Below, in pieces: positions 348 through 23,811 of a stretch of 39,625 nt of DNA. Under the pieces are notes generated by a model. It was not told where the DNA came from and ran no database searches. It worked only from the letters and a program-made list of their open reading frames with translations. Numbering within the stretch: the stretch's first letter is position 1; each line of letters starts with the position of its first letter. Source of the DNA: an uncultured bacterium. GTDB taxonomy: Bacteria > Patescibacteriota > Minisyncoccia > Phycocordibacterales > CAIRYW01. The DNA lies in NCBI GenBank assembly GCA_903882905.1, contig CAIRYW010000028.1, positions 1 to 39,625 on the forward strand, given 5' to 3'. Both the position numbers and the translations under genes were made by a program.

Positions 348-452
348 CTCCTTACAGGAGCTGTACACCTTTTCGAATTTTTATTTCGTTTTTACTCATA
401 AAAATTCTGAAAAGGTCTTGCGCTTGGGAACCCTTATCCCAAGCTCACCTCC
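348..452 (-). ncRNA. Three-hairpin RNA motif, copy 1 (family not recognised)
   Basis: Read on the minus strand this holds GAGGTGAG, a hairpin with 7-8 bp (GCTTGGGA pairing TCCCAAGC), the linker GCAAGACC, a long AU-rich hairpin closed by ACCTTTTC/GAAAAGGT, then GTAC and a short hairpin GCTCC-TGTAA-GGAGC. The same blocks recur in the same order at 22833-22920 although the helix sequences differ, which suggests a conserved structure. It lies between tRNA-Gly and the glutaredoxin gene, upstream of the latter. I do not recognise it as a known riboswitch or ribozyme. Strand is inferred from the flanking genes. Confidence 0.55.
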
Positions 453-525
453 GCCCGGCACTTTAATATTAATTAATTCTATTTTACCACCCAAAAGTTA
501 AGTAGACAAATTTATTATTATTTGT

Positions 526-595
526 GCGAGTAGTGAGAATCGAACTCACGCCCGATGCTTGGGAAGCACCAGTTCTACCACTAAACTATACTCGC
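526..595 (-). tRNA. tRNA-Gly (anticodon CCC)
   Basis: A 70-nt cloverleaf. The acceptor GCGAGTA pairs with TACTCGC, the D arm has AGTGGTA, the anticodon stem GGTGC/GCATC encloses loop TTCCCAA with anticodon CCC, and the T arm is GTGAG-TTCGATT-CTCAC. CCA is not encoded (the discriminator A is followed by CAAATA), so a CCA-adding enzyme is needed. It lies just downstream of the FtsB-like gene on the same strand. Confidence 0.95.
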
Positions 596-1126: not shown

Positions 1127-2935
1127 CTAATTAGAATCCCTCTTCATCATCTTAAGAAATACATCTTGAGGTATGTTTACAGTTCCTCTGTCTTTCATCT
1201 TTTTCTTTCCCTTTTTCTGCTTCTCTCTAAGCTTCATTTTTCTTGTAATATCGCCTCCATACATATGCTGAGTTACATCCTTTTTAAGGGCTGAAATGCT
1301 CCTAGAAGCGATTATACGGCCCATAGCCTTGGCTTGAATCTTGGTTGCAAACATTTGCCTTGGAAGCACTGCGTGCAGTTTATCCACCGCTTTATTTGCG
1401 TCCTCTTCTACCCTTCTTTTAGCAATTACAGAAGCAAAAGCGACAACAGGTTCATCAGCCACTAGAATATCCATTCTGCAAACATCCGCATCGCGAAGAC
1501 CTTCAAATTCATAAGAAAGAGAAGCAAAACCAGAAGAAACACTTTTAAGTTCATCAAAAAAATTTCTCATTAATTCTCTAAGTGGCATAGACAATGTCAT
1601 TGAATTTCTTCCATCTGTAAAAGTTTCTGAATCGTGGAGTTCAGCTTCGTGTTCATAAAATAATTGATAAACTGGTCCTGTATATTTTTCGGGAGCAATA
1701 ATTGTAACCTTAACCCACGGCTCGCGAATACTTTCTATCAAATGTTCATCAGGAAATAATGAAGGAGAATAAATAGTTTCTTTTTTCCCAGTTTTGAAAA
1801 CAATTTCATAAGTAATACTTGGTGTTGCGATAATCAAATTAAGATTAAATTCTCTTTTTAATCTTTCTGTAATAATTTCTAGATGTAAAAGACCCAAAAA
1901 ACCACATCTAAAACCACGTCCTAAAGAACCTGAGGACTCTTCTTCAAAAGTAAAAGCAGAATCAGAAAGTCTCAATTTTTTTAAAGCCAATTCCAAATTC
2001 TTAAAATCATCAGCATCACTTGGAAAAACAGAGGCCCAAACAACAGGTTTTGGTTCTACATATCCAGAAAGTCCTTCTGCAGGATTTTTTGTTGAAACAA
2101 TTGTATCTCCCACCGATGCGATGCCTGGTTGTTTGATTCCTGTAACAATGTATCCAATTTGCCCTTCAGTTAATTTTTCCACAGAAACTTCTTCAGGTGC
2201 AAAGATTCCGACTTCTAGCGCTTCAAACTGTTCCTTTGAAACTGAAAACATCAATTTGTCTCCTTTCTTTACTTCCCCAGACATTACTCGAATAAAAACA
2301 ATCACTCCTTTATGATTCGTAAATTGAAAATCAAAAACTAAAGCCTGAAGTTTTTTTGTGTCTTCCCCTATAAGTAAATTTTTTGGTGCTGGAATTTTTT
2401 CTATAATTTCTTCAAGTAATTTTTGAACCCCGACTCCTGTTTTTCCTGAGACTTCAATAATTTCGTCTTCATTTATTTTGAGAACATTCGAAATTTCAGA
2501 TTTTATATCTTCTATTCTAGCGATCGGTGAATCAATTTTTGTAACGACAGGAATTATTTTTAAATTTGTTTTTTTTGCAGCTTCAAGAACTGTCAGAGTT
2601 TGTGCTTGAATACCTTGTGTTGCATCAACAAGCAAAAGACATCCCTCTACAGCTTTTAGTGCGCGAGAAACTTCATATGAAAAATCTATGTGCCCTGGAG
2701 TATCGATTAAATTTAATAAATATTTTTCTGACTTGTGCTCAAAAAACATTCTAACTGGACGCATTTTTATGGTAATCCCCTTTTCACGTTCAAGTTCCAT
2801 ATTATCCAAAACCTGATCCATCATCTTTCGCTTTTCTATTGTATGGGTAATTTCAAGCATCCTATCGGCAAGAGTAGACTTTCCGTGGTCAATATGAGCA
2901 ATAATGCTGAAATTTCTTATGTATTTCGGATTCAT
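1127..2935 (-). CDS. lepA: Elongation factor 4 (LepA), ribosome back-translocating GTPase
   Basis: At 602 residues this is the full EF4 length. The P-loop AHIDHGKST is at 13-21, followed by a switch I RGITI-like segment (EKGITIKMR), DTPGH (G3), and TKID (G4). The C-terminal domain special to LepA is present, with MYGGDITRKMKLREKQKKGKKKMK near the end (shown as a family feature: GGDITRK and the basic tail). EF4 binds stalled or mistranslocated ribosomes and helps 30S assembly. The ATG overlaps the TGA of a 17-codon ORF upstream (2932-2985), so translational coupling is possible. Confidence 0.98.
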   Translation of the reverse strand: MNPKYIRNFSIIAHIDHGKSTLADRMLEITHTIEKRKMMDQVLDNMELEREKGITIKMRPVRMFFEHKSEKYLLNLIDTPGHIDFSYEVSRALKAVEGCLLLVDATQGIQAQTLTVLEAAKKTNLKIIPVVTKIDSPIARIEDIKSEISNVLKINEDEIIEVSGKTGVGVQKLLEEIIEKIPAPKNLLIGEDTKKLQALVFDFQFTNHKGVIVFIRVMSGEVKKGDKLMFSVSKEQFEALEVGIFAPEEVSVEKLTEGQIGYIVTGIKQPGIASVGDTIVSTKNPAEGLSGYVEPKPVVWASVFPSDADDFKNLELALKKLRLSDSAFTFEEESSGSLGRGFRCGFLGLLHLEIITERLKREFNLNLIIATPSITYEIVFKTGKKETIYSPSLFPDEHLIESIREPWVKVTIIAPEKYTGPVYQLFYEHEAELHDSETFTDGRNSMTLSMPLRELMRNFFDELKSVSSGFASLSYEFEGLRDADVCRMDILVADEPVVAFASVIAKRRVEEDANKAVDKLHAVLPRQMFATKIQAKAMGRIIASRSISALKKDVTQHMYGGDITRKMKLREKQKKGKKKMKDRGTVNIPQDVFLKMMKRDSN

Positions 2936-2993
2936 CCCGCACTGAAAAATGGCATTGATTTTTTGCTATCGCAACTTTTTGCCATTTAATTGA

Positions 2994-3083
2994 TTAAATT
3001 CTTTTTAATTCGACAAATCCCAAAATACTGCCATCCGCTGAAAAATCAAGATAGCAATGCAATTTTCTAGTGACGGGATTCAT
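2994..3083 (-). CDS. Possible 29-aa leader ORF upstream of lepA
   Basis: A tentative short ORF beginning MNPVTRKLHCYLDFSADG and ending FVELKRI. A TGC-TAATAT box lies 8 nt before its ATG, close to the spacing of other starts here. A second ORF of 17 codons (2932-2985, MAKSCDSKKSM...) follows after 8 bp and ends in an ATGA overlap with lepA. The composition looks protein-like, but both are too short to be sure. The 254-bp gap they occupy holds no other gene. Confidence 0.3.
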   Translation of the reverse strand: MNPVTRKLHCYLDFSADGSILGFVELKRI

Positions 3084-3131
3084 TGATGCTCATATTAGCA
3101 AAAAAACACCACCAGCACTATAGCAAAATTT

Positions 3132-3179
3132 GTTTAGGGCAGTCCTAAACACAACTTAGGGGTTGAACCCCTAAGTTGT
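3132..3179. repeat. Two adjacent palindromes downstream of murJ
   Basis: GTTTAGG-loop-CCTAAAC (3132-3150) is followed at once by a perfect 12-bp hairpin ACAACTTAGGGG / CCCCTAAGTTGT (3151-3179). No run of T follows on the minus strand, so this is not a standard intrinsic terminator. The core AACTTAGGG/CCCTAAGTT also occurs inside gnd (23616-23652), which marks it as a repeat family. Confidence 0.6.
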
Positions 3180-3189
3180 TCAATGTTAG

Positions 3190-4869
3190 TTAGACTAGTT
3201 CATCAAGGACAATATTCTTATCTTTCTCATCTTTCCAAATCTTTTTCTTTAGAGACAAGATCACTTGATCAAGTTCTTCGCTTTTCATCAATTTAAGTAC
3301 TAAAATTCCAGCAATGATTCCCACAATACCTGAGAAAAGTCCTTGCAAAAATATCCCGATGAAAGAGTCGAGATTTAAAAAATCATCAAAAATATTGAGG
3401 GATAAATAAGACATATAACCCATAATCACAGATGCTCCAATACTTTGAAAAGTAACTTTTTTTATATTTTTTGTGTAAGTTGGAAATTCTCGTTCAAATG
3501 CGACCCAATGAAGAATCATATTAAAAGTAATTCCTACTGAAAATGCCAAAGCAAGCATTACAACAATTGAACCGGGTACATCTTCAATACGAAGAAGCAT
3601 TTGGAAAAAATATGCAATCGTTGGAAAAGTGTTATACAAAAAAACAAATAAATAACCACAAGCAATAGTTACTACCATTGCAATAACATTTATTGAAAGT
3701 GGTTTCTTTGTTTTTCCTTCTGCATAAAAAGCTCGCACAAAAAGAAGAACTAAACTTTGTGGGATTATTGAAATAGAAAACAGTGCAAGTGCAGCTGCTG
3801 TTAGTCTTGTATCAGACCAAGTAAAATGCCCTGCACCAAGTACAGTTCGAACAATTTGGGCTCGCAGAACTATAAAGAGAACTACCGCGGGCATTGACCA
3901 AAAAATTATGTGTTTGGTGACTGAAATCATTCTTTCTAAAAAAACATCTTTTTTTCCTTGTACGTACAATCGAGAAAGTAATGGGAAAACTGCAGATGCA
4001 TACGAAACTCCAATAATTGAAAGTGGTCCTGATTCAAGGTTAAAAGAAAAATTAAAAATAGTAATCGCTCCGGATCCCAAAAGTGAAGCGATAGAAACTA
4101 AGGCAAAAGCAGAAATAGAACTAGTTGACAGTGTCACGGTTCTTGGAATTGAAAGTCCAATGACTCTTTTTACTGAAGGAAAATCTATTTTGAAAGTCAT
4201 TTTTGGAAAAGATTTTTTATCAACTATAAAAGGAACTTGAATAAATGCATGTAAAAATGCACCGATAGCAACACCAAAACCTAAACCATAAATTCCAAAA
4301 ATTGGGTAAAGAAAAATAATTCCAACAATGATTCCAACGTTATATAAAATTGGGCTTAATGCATAAAGAAAAAATCTGTTATGCATCTGAACAATCGAAG
4401 CAAAAAAATTTGAAAAACCCAAAAATAGCGGAGAAAGCAACATAATTCTAGAAAGTGTCACGAGCTTTGTTATTTCATCAGGAGTTAGCCCTGGGAAAAG
4501 TTTGGGTGACAAAATGGGCATTAAAAAATACGCGACCAAAGAGACTAAAATCATTATTATAAAAAACACGCTAAAAATCGCATCAATTAGTGATTTAGTA
4601 TCTTTTCCTTTTTCTTCAGCTTCTGTAAAAAAAGGAACTAAGATAGATATTGAAACTAAAGATGCAACAGTTACAAAAATTAAATCAGGAATTCTAAAAG
4701 ACGCGTAATAAATATCAAGTGTTGTTCCAGCCCCAAAAGTACCAGCGAGCATTCGATCACGAACTAAAGCTAAAAGCTGAGCAAGTAAGGCAAAAAAACC
4801 TAAAAGATATGCAATTCCATGAATACTAACAATCTCCTTGCTAAATATATTAAAAATTTTGTTAACCAT
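3190..4869 (-). CDS. murJ: Lipid II flippase MurJ (MviN family)
   Basis: A 559-residue polytopic protein with about 14 hydrophobic helices. The N-terminal stretch with LVRDRMLAGTFGAG and YYASFRIPD matches the conserved MurJ signature of the MOP exporter superfamily. It flips lipid II across the cytoplasmic membrane for peptidoglycan synthesis. The last ~40 residues are a charged cytoplasmic tail (MKSEELDQVILSLKKKIWK). A TATACT box lies 9 nt before the ATG. The gene follows the rnpB terminator and is probably transcribed alone; murI is about 1 kb upstream on the same strand. Confidence 0.95.
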   Translation of the reverse strand: MVNKIFNIFSKEIVSIHGIAYLLGFFALLAQLLALVRDRMLAGTFGAGTTLDIYYASFRIPDLIFVTVASLVSISILVPFFTEAEEKGKDTKSLIDAIFSVFFIIMILVSLVAYFLMPILSPKLFPGLTPDEITKLVTLSRIMLLSPLFLGFSNFFASIVQMHNRFFLYALSPILYNVGIIVGIIFLYPIFGIYGLGFGVAIGAFLHAFIQVPFIVDKKSFPKMTFKIDFPSVKRVIGLSIPRTVTLSTSSISAFALVSIASLLGSGAITIFNFSFNLESGPLSIIGVSYASAVFPLLSRLYVQGKKDVFLERMISVTKHIIFWSMPAVVLFIVLRAQIVRTVLGAGHFTWSDTRLTAAALALFSISIIPQSLVLLFVRAFYAEGKTKKPLSINVIAMVVTIACGYLFVFLYNTFPTIAYFFQMLLRIEDVPGSIVVMLALAFSVGITFNMILHWVAFEREFPTYTKNIKKVTFQSIGASVIMGYMSYLSLNIFDDFLNLDSFIGIFLQGLFSGIVGIIAGILVLKLMKSEELDQVILSLKKKIWKDEKDKNIVLDELV

Positions 4870-4918: not shown

Positions 4919-4933
4919 TTTTTTGTGAAAATT

Positions 4934-5316
4934 GCGCCTATAAGCCGAGTTCTGTCTGACCACACCATTCATTGGTGGATGAGGCAATCATTTATCTGTC
5001 TATCCGATTACTCGGTAGATCAAGCGGTTCATCGAACATTTTGGCCATGGGACAAAGTGTTCGATACGACCTTGCACACAAGTAAGGATTTTGCCGTTTC
5101 ATCTCACAATTTCGTATGAGCAACTCCTTTGCAGGAGCCCATTGAATTTCTTCTTTGGCGTTTCTGTTCGCACCTCTTATTCGTTTTCAAACGATATAGA
5201 CGGGTGTTACCCGCTACCTTCCCCAGCACTTTATTTTTTAAAATTTAAAAAATAAAGTGCTGGGTATGTGCTCGGACTTTCCTCCCTAATTTACATTAGA
5301 GCGATTACCAGGCGCT
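4934..5316 (-). ncRNA. rnpB: RNase P RNA (type A-like)
   Basis: The catalytic RNA of RNase P, which trims tRNA 5' leaders. On the minus strand the 5' end GCGCCTGGTAATCGC and the 3' end TTATAGGCGC form P1. The universal core GAGGAAAGTCCG is present near 5273-5284, the ACAGAAA segment near 5160-5170, and a GGTAACACC hairpin follows. An extended -10 (TGT-TATAAT, 5323-5331) lies upstream and a terminator at 4896-4918. Unusual: a perfect 21-bp palindrome (5222-5264), mostly A/T, is inserted between the GAGGAAAGTCCG core and the GGTAACACC hairpin. Confidence 0.95.
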
Positions 5317-5322
5317 TTAGAT

Positions 5323-22832: not shown

Positions 22833-22920
22833 CTCCTTACAGGAGCGGTACACCTTTTGGATTTTATTTCATAAAATCTCAAAAGGTCTTGCGAAGCTAC
22901 AAGTGTTCGCTTCTCACCTC
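22833..22920 (-). ncRNA. Three-hairpin RNA motif, copy 2
   Basis: Read on the minus strand it has GAGGTGAG, a hairpin closed by GAAGC/GCTTC, GCAAGACC, a hairpin closed by ACCTTTT/AAAAGGT, GTAC and the short hairpin CTCC-TGTAA-GGAG. All single-stranded blocks match copy 1 (348-452) while stem sequences differ with compensation. It overlaps the last codons and stop of gnd and precedes the 94-aa gene by about 40 bp. Confidence 0.55.
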
Positions 22921-23811
22921 ATGTCCTCCAAACATAGTTCTCATTGTTGATAATACTTTTCCAGTAAAACTTGGATTCCCTGTCGAGTTAATTCTAAATT
23001 CTAAAGAGTCTTCAATAACTCGTACCGGAACATTAAGTTCACGAGCAGTATTTACAGTCCATTCTCCTTCTCCACTGTGAGATACCTCGCCGGAAATTCC
23101 AACAAGCTCTTCTCCGAATTTTTCAAATCCATCATGTAGCCAGCCGACGAGGCGAGATTCCACAACACTTTTATTTTGATAAATTTCAGAAACTTCTTTT
23201 AAATTCAGATTAAATTCAGATTTTTTTAGAACTTCGAACCCTTCTCCAATTGCCTGCATCATTCCGTATTCTATTCCATTGTGAACCATTTTTACAAAAT
23301 GCCCCGCCCCGCTAATGCCGAAATATTTATACGCATTTGGAGCTGATGCTTTTTTAAAAATTTCTTCACATTTTTCAAATATTTCTTTTTTTCCTCCCAC
23401 CATTATACAAGCCCCGTTTCTTGCACCACTTGGTCCACCCGAAACTCCAGCATCCAAAAATTCAAATCCTAATCCTTCGGCTTCTTTGGCGCGCCTAATA
23501 CTTTCTTTATAAAAAGAATTTCCACCTTCTATGATAATGTCTCCTCTGTTTAAATTTTGATAAAGCTCTTTTAACACTTCATCTACTCCTTGATGACTGA
23601 CCATAATCCAAATAATGCGAGAACTTAGGGATGAAACCCCTAAGTTCTCGCACATTTCTTTGATTGAGTTTTTTACTTCAATTCCGGCCTCACGAGCTTT
23701 AATTTTTCCGTCTTCACTTCGATTAAAACCAACAATCTCAATTCCCTGCTCCTTTAGACGAAGTGCTTGATTCAAACCCATTTTTCCAAATCCTATGTAG
23801 CCAATTTTCAT
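22897..23811 (-). CDS. gnd: 6-phosphogluconate dehydrogenase, decarboxylating (short, YqeC/GndA type)
   Basis: A 304-residue enzyme making ribulose-5-P, CO2 and reduced nicotinamide cofactor. The nucleotide-binding GFGKMG is at 7-12, GGNSFYKESIRR and DAGVSGGPSGARNG form the substrate site, and KMVHNGIEYGMMQ has the catalytic Lys and the conserved His-Asn. It belongs to the short form. A perfect palindrome (23616-23652) lies in the coding sequence and encodes ENLGVSSLSS, apparently an in-frame insertion before the RIIWIMV strand. The 3' end overlaps an RNA motif. It partners zwf two genes upstream. Confidence 0.95.
   Translation of the reverse strand: MKIGYIGFGKMGLNQALRLKEQGIEIVGFNRSEDGKIKAREAGIEVKNSIKEMCENLGVSSLSSRIIWIMVSHQGVDEVLKELYQNLNRGDIIIEGGNSFYKESIRRAKEAEGLGFEFLDAGVSGGPSGARNGACIMVGGKKEIFEKCEEIFKKASAPNAYKYFGISGAGHFVKMVHNGIEYGMMQAIGEGFEVLKKSEFNLNLKEVSEIYQNKSVVESRLVGWLHDGFEKFGEELVGISGEVSHSGEGEWTVNTARELNVPVRVIEDSLEFRINSTGNPSFTGKVLSTMRTMFGGHEVRSEHL
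23616..23652. repeat. Palindrome inserted in frame in gnd
   Basis: Perfect 15-bp arms (TGCGAGAACTTAGGG and complement) with a 7-nt loop inside the gnd coding sequence. The core matches the intergenic palindrome at 3151-3179. It adds about 10 residues to a surface turn between two conserved strands, without breaking the frame. Confidence 0.7.

Follow-up and report, generated by a model that had tools for sequence, protein, structure and literature searches.

Background

The short palindromic repeats known as REPs fall into GTAG- and CGTC-tagged classes, and no dedicated transposase is known for the CGTC class (PMC3733652). The 16S and 23S rRNA genes of CPR bacteria carry insertions of another kind, namely group I or group II introns or other inserts, many of them with homing endonuclease ORFs (PMC11270868). 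Here we describe another set of insertions. It was encountered in the window, the whole stretch of 39,625 nucleotides analysed here, in which an earlier note had pointed out a three-hairpin motif present twice and suggested a conserved RNA of no known class. We propose, with a probability of about 0.78, that the motif is the type A member of a family of non-coding, non-autonomous hairpin mobile elements, almost confined to one Patescibacteria order and mobilised in trans.

Two copies in the window

The two copies noted do occur, and both lie on the minus strand (447 to 348 and 22916 to 22833). They share the single-stranded blocks RRG/TGAG, GCAAGACC and GGTGTAC and a hairpin with a TGTAA loop, with different bases in the stems, as had been noticed. 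Their minimum free energies correspond to z-scores of -5.2 (copy 1) and -4.4 (copy 2) against dinucleotide shuffles. The element body is taken here as TGAG through the end of hairpin 3, and all coordinates of the two copies refer to the minus strand.

Copy 1 (348-447) is recovered with 80.4 bits (E = 3.2e-17) by R1, a four-sequence covariance model that includes copy 2 and from which copy 1 was left out. It is inserted after AGG (450-448), with base 347 as the retained target base. Hairpin P1 (GCTTGGGA/TTCCCAAGC, 422-444) is seen in the fold and corresponds to the first covarying helix. It is followed by the conserved block GCAAGACC (414-421), the ACC of which opens P2, then by P2 itself (367-416), the conserved block GGTGTAC (363-369) and P3 (CTCC-TGTAA-GGAG, 348-360), P2 and P3 being supported by both the fold and the covariance model. 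About 75 nt separate copy 1 from a tRNA-Gly(CCC) gene (524-595, minus strand) upstream; the copy lies between this gene and the glutaredoxin gene correctly noted 3' of the motif, and is oriented as both. Such a position, downstream of a tRNA on the same strand, is the usual neighbourhood of the family. No empty site was identified for copy 1.

Copy 2 (22833-22916) scores 101.5 bits with R1, a model in which it is included. Its P1 (22893-22913) is supported by the fold and the covariance model; the block GCAAGACC occupies 22885-22892, the block GGTGTAC, which forms the 3' end of P2 and the junction, 22848-22854, and P3, again CTCC-TGTAA-GGAG, 22833-22845. As described earlier, the copy lies over the stop codon of gnd (6-phosphogluconate dehydrogenase, 22897-23811, minus strand), and it is oriented as that gene. 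The insertion point follows AGG (22919-22917) in the last gnd codons, and what is left of gnd, AAAGAAAAATAA, comes after the element. The window gnd protein now ends in FGGHEVRSEHL and a stop, whereas relatives end in FGGHDVTEK, FGGHDVKNK, FGGHEVHKK or similar. The arrangement CATGAGG/element/AAAGAAAAATAA fits the relatives' end (HEV-K-E-K and a stop) if TG is replaced by the element, and thus fits an interruption of the last gnd codons, and of the 3' end of the gene, by copy 2. The 94-aa gene downstream of copy 2 exhibits no Pfam match. A pattern search located a third near-identical copy elsewhere in the same genome (G000:C19:59088-59144).

The window also contains a divergent RNase P RNA of class A (4925-5318, minus strand; 79 bits, below the gathering score of 100), in which 5219-5267 form a long hairpin rich in AT.

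Structure and covariation

Type A elements are about 85-110 bases long, non-coding, and built of three hairpins in the layout RRG/TGA-P1-GCAAGACC-P2-GGTGTACAG-P3, where P3 carries the TGTAA loop and closes the element. The consensus of 132 type A copies starts with TGAG directly after RRG, and its conserved unpaired blocks are RRG-TGA, GCAAGA, G(T/G)AC(A/T)G and the TGTAA loop. In an alignment of 121 distinct sequences, fitted to the covariance model beforehand, standard pairs make up 95.6% of pair cells, double changes occur in 25 of the 26 pairs, and the covariation score is 0.626, versus at most 0.115 with slid partners. A free RNAalifold prediction from 76 Kaiserbacteria copies recovered P1, P2 and P3, with all 25 pairs covarying (25/25). 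None of the Rfam 15 covariance models matches the window motif at E<=5, or type A and its tRNA-bound relatives at E<=1.

Non-standard pairs in P1 are G-T in 36 cases and A-C in 5, an excess such as a functional RNA would exhibit, which counts against the mobile-element reading. A low G-T content was also considered as a sign of selection at the DNA level, and dropped: it is uninformative, since tRNA controls have a similar G-T content, and the ratio of G-T to A-C gives a mixed picture. The selected form may be RNA or single-stranded DNA.

Distribution and copy number

The genome of the window contains nine or ten copies (nine with R1). At E<=0.01, R1 finds copies in 35 of 60 relatives from nearly as many different families of the order, at 1 to 26 copies each. 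A second model, R2, was derived from 124 copies and detects the element in 21 of the 286 genomes of the class. Only nine genomes of the class outside the order are positive with R2, at one or two strong copies each (G078, G163, G160, G065, G095, G076, G147, G305 and G200; L272-L281); these may reflect horizontal transfer or mis-binned contigs. In a phylum-wide sample searched with strict filters, the positive genomes (9/380) all belong to the order of the window. Among 33 named genomes reached through loci, copies are found in three CPR genomes only, numbering 81 (Kaiserbacteria MFMT01), 57 (another MAG) and 15, and the other 30 have none. Covariance-model searches of CPR genomes, which the earlier note had proposed, thus yielded many further copies, and these covary.

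Exact-pattern scans gave 119 matches on genome contigs, nearly all due to chance, the three real ones being in these same named CPR genomes, JAIELQ01 (L066), Campbellbacteria PCTT01 (L088) and Kaiserbacteria MFMT01 (L092). The 12 matches on viral contigs lack the fold and are all due to chance. As far as these searches reach, the family appears almost wholly restricted to one Patescibacteria order, where it is patchy and of high copy number.

Insertion sites and target rule

Of the first 124 copies, about half have a tRNA within 400 bp, and most of these are downstream of the tRNA. The sequences interrupted are tRNAs (in both orientations), 5S rRNA, CGTC-type REP palindromes, gene ends and other copies of the element, some copies sitting inside P1 or P3 of another. 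When the flanks were fused, 63 of 131 type A copies proved to have a homologue in the sampled loci that runs across the junction without interruption. The commonest gap relative to the empty site is 3 nt (33/63), and the third gap base is identical to the base after P3 in 29 of 36 clean cases, so that two target bases are replaced. On the left side the target exhibits R at -3 (96%), R at -2 (89%) and G at -1 (92%). Examples, with the replaced bases between slashes, are a 5S rRNA (GATGGG/TA/CACCTG; L137), the D-arm of a tRNA-Asn (GTAGAG/CG/GTCGA; L171) and a tRNA-Ser (GGGG/GG/AAACTCC; L167). Many Kaiserbacteria copies split CGTC-type REPs (CGTCTTTGCGAG/element/..GCAATCCACG) or other element copies. 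Copies antisense to the tRNA sequence that they interrupt (L156, L197, L221) indicate that the orientation relative to the host gene is variable, and so speak for insertion into DNA.

The ends, TGAG at one side and P3 at the other, are not inverted repeats of each other, and there is no consistent target duplication, the empty sites in the tRNA, 5S and REP cases exhibiting a 2-nt replacement. The sampled loci contain neither an ORF between the element ends nor a long ORF-bearing version. The same element occurs at different sites, with empty sites identifiable for 63 of the 131 copies, the general mark of a transposable element. At the level of sequence, these data establish a fixed three-hairpin architecture kept by double compensatory changes, and a precise insertion into pre-existing sequences, after RRG, with two target bases replaced and in both orientations. 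Of the conserved RNA suggested earlier, the real, conserved and covarying three-hairpin structure stands; a functional RNA with a common gene context is not supported, the copies lying at unrelated places and interrupting tRNAs, 5S rRNA, REPs and one another.

Two further targeting rules were tried and rejected. Complementarity between left and right flanks (hairpin targeting) was barely above control. A right-flank guide, in which P3 pairs with the target, was dropped, as only the base after P3 is reliably derived from the target.

Several other repeats were observed at these loci. Kaiserbacteria MFMT01 (L285-L324) has a very high density of CGTC-type REP palindromes, and the element uses them as landing sites. 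At L162 (about 1379-1600), a tRNA-Ile copy is interrupted at the anticodon loop, at the variable loop (by the element) and at the T-loop, and an intact tRNA-Ile sits within the first of these interruptions. In genome G040 (L168, L165, L169, L170, L173), another repeat family has inverted ends (AGGTAAATACCCCG ... GGGGTTTAATACCT), and the element is repeatedly found at one fixed position within it.

Gene fragments beside intact genes

About a dozen type A copies follow the 5' fragment of a gene, an intact copy of which comes next within about 200 bp. The genes concerned are GH1 glucosidase, msrA, thymidylate-kinase-like, tRNA and 5S genes. We propose that a host- or element-borne enzyme, acting in trans, would recognise the folded single strand and mobilise the copies, and that insertions in essential genes would persist only where an intact gene copy is restored alongside; partial genes and tRNAs would for that reason be found beside whole ones.

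At L215 and L216, all differences between the fragment and the intact gene are synonymous, which points to a divergence of the two as functional alleles before they were joined. This counts against our preferred reading, because simple insertion gives no account of it. Restoration of the gene through recombination with incoming DNA is one possibility. Synonymous-only fragments were observed at L215:2996-3099, L216:9310-9414 and L066:5396-5488, and concern two GH1 genes and one thymidylate-kinase-like gene.

tRNA-bound relatives

A second arrangement, type B, consists of an intact tRNA, a spacer, often a hairpin, a complement to the tRNA T-arm, a core and a duplicated tRNA 3' end. The core is either type-A-like or of a second sort, GGAGC..GGGGTCGC..GTGACC. 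The duplicate begins at the T-loop and sometimes runs past the tRNA into the terminator (54 bp at L138, 58 bp at L145). We counted 56 type B units among 170 distinct tRNAs, in a sample biased towards the element. The complement scores 21.1 on average against its own tRNA and 13.0 against other tRNAs, its own being the best in 33 of 56. In genome G016, sampled by tRNA and not by element, the repeat score is reached by 13 of the 34 tRNA genes, in one or two cases via a neighbouring tRNA, and further tRNAs have the complement alone.

Type B would be a related family of elements that has specialised on the T-loop of tRNAs, and in which P1 would be the inverted complement of the abutting tRNA 3' half. 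A bolder reading, which we regard as possible but doubtful, is guided mobility: a folded RNA or single-stranded DNA, with P1 as an inverted copy of the target, would integrate at the T-loop of the tRNA and, by duplicating the tRNA end, leave the gene whole. Type A would then be a simplified, freely jumping form replacing two bases after RRG, and the guide would be rebuilt out of each new target.

Candidate mobilisers and alternative explanations

Among reverse transcriptase, Y1 transposase and GIY-YIG genes, we found none as the mobilising gene, their presence exhibiting no clean tracking of copy number. Reverse transcriptase (PF00078) is unrelated to the copies (p=0.6). Y1 transposase (PF01797) is weakly related (27/35 carriers versus 12/25 non-carriers, p=0.03), and was undetected in the copy-rich genomes G003 (near complete), G033 and G040. 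Extra GIY-YIG genes (PF01541) are moderately related (33/35 versus 16/25, p=0.005), and there are none in G006, though it has 10 copies. GIY-YIG nucleases of the I-TevI type leave 2-base overhangs, which would fit the loss of two bases. Five GIY-YIG ORFs have a copy on their own strand no more than about 210 bp away, but both kinds of gene gather at tRNAs. These single-domain ORFs are L166:4667-4900, L265:2844-3083, L268:2910-3146, L165:2646-2891 and L295:10797-11153, one of the five being about 8 nt from a tRNA-Leu.

Another gene was observed at these loci. HTH proteins that share a conserved C-terminal domain (LYWGEG...SNSDP) are mostly encoded directly upstream of a same-strand tRNA gene (L221:6102-6758, L316:4411-5791 and 2673-3308, L240:842-1501, L235:829-1491, L214:4201-4857, L088:1721-2314, L212:853-1563). 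They exhibit no Pfam family beyond HTH, and a protein model (pLDDT 92) gave no credible PDB match with Foldseek. This gene is a candidate tRNA-linked selfish gene.

The weak co-occurrence with Y1 genes bears on the best of the alternatives, that the copies are REP-type palindromes moved in trans by a RAYT/IS200-type Y1 transposase. In its favour are the size and copy number, the hairpin ends, the lack of terminal inverted repeats and the extragenic bias. We nevertheless consider it quite unlikely: the element has three hairpins, not one, and no GTAG or CGTC tag, no more than about two of the Y1 genes listed have a listed copy within 2 kb, and three copy-rich genomes have no detected Y1. We know of no RAYT that acts by 2-base replacement.

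The same covariation that defines the fold, together with the conserved unpaired blocks and the 36:5 bias in P1, would also be expected of a new class of functional non-coding RNA (a cis-regulator or sRNA), multi-copy by chance and with a fold kept for the host. Such a class is improbable given the lack of a common gene context, the interruption of tRNAs, 5S, REPs and its own copies in both orientations, and the patchy occurrence among relatives, from 0 to 81 copies.

Type B, with its intact tRNA, insert and displaced 3' fragment starting at the T-loop, has the classical pattern of tRNA-gene integration, and 56 such units occur among the 170 tRNAs sampled. The elements might in that case be ends or scars of larger tyrosine-recombinase integrative elements, with attL/attR-like tRNA fragments remaining after deletion of the cargo. 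This is very improbable, since the insert is a conserved structured sequence of about 150 nt instead of variable remnants, type A exhibits no attachment duplication in the tRNA, 5S and REP cases and targets any RRG, and no cargo-bearing version was seen in the sampled loci.

Least credible is a mini-intron, self- or protein-spliced in tRNA, rRNA or mRNA and removed at the RNA level: many sense-orientation insertions within tRNA and 5S sequence and the EBS/IBS-like target complement of type B would suit it, but a fused-flank ORF test gave zero convincing intron-like interior cases (the longest frames being two neighbouring genes, AI-2E-type transporter/metG at L209, or a gene end, clpC at L177), intact host-gene copies adjoin the tRNA, 5S and 5'-gene-fragment cases, antisense insertions exist, and with two target bases lost, excision would leave the host sequence unrestored.

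Comparison with known systems

No description of the trans-mobilised hairpin element proposed here was found in the open-licence literature, and the family is previously uncatalogued. Ultra-small Patescibacteria are regarded as streamlined, yet some of their genomes carry this short parasitic element about every 10 kb, even in tRNA and rRNA sequence. With its exact insertion rule and conserved fold, it offers a clean handle on the mechanism of mobility.

Like REPs (PMC3733652), the element is short, non-coding, hairpin-forming, present in dozens of copies, mostly extragenic and presumed to be mobilised in trans. A REP, however, is a single palindrome of 20-40 bp ending in GTAG or CGTC, whereas the element has 85-110 nt, three hairpins and single-strand blocks, inserts after RRG with replacement of 2 bases, and in Kaiserbacteria inserts into CGTC-like REPs. 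REPs of the GTAG class flank a RAYT (Y1) gene, while, among the listed coordinates, copies of the element are nearly never within 2 kb of a Y1 gene. With MITEs it shares its small size, high copy number and non-autonomous nature, but it lacks terminal inverted repeats and a consistent target-site duplication. It resembles the ends of IS200/IS605 and their palindromic derivatives in its subterminal hairpins, strand-specific structure and lack of terminal inverted repeats; it differs in that no transposase-bearing relative was found in the sampled loci, two target bases are lost and Y1 genes are not flanked by it, though it may still derive from such an IS. The RYYYAAC and GTTRRRY boxes that mark integron attC sites, which form cassette arrays with IntI, were not noticed in the consensus.

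The introns and other inserts in the rRNA genes of CPR bacteria (PMC11270868) likewise interrupt rRNA genes within this phylum, and stem-loops are often the site. The element, in contrast, exhibits no Rfam intron match and no ORF, sits in 5S, tRNA, REPs and gene ends, and leaves intact copies beside the RNA genes that it interrupts. Judged by these sequence features, it would be a short non-autonomous palindromic mobile element to which the tested defining features of REPs, MITEs and introns do not apply. Type B units share with tyrosine-integrase elements at tRNA genes the succession of intact tRNA, insert and displaced tRNA 3' fragment, but their insert, at only about 90-300 nt, lacks an integrase and includes an inverted complement of the target. 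These tRNA-bound relatives, each with a complement matched to its tRNA, are unlike any of the systems tested, and may bias both the evolution and the annotation of tRNA genes in this large phylum. If the complements are guides rebuilt at each insertion, they would represent a new mechanism.
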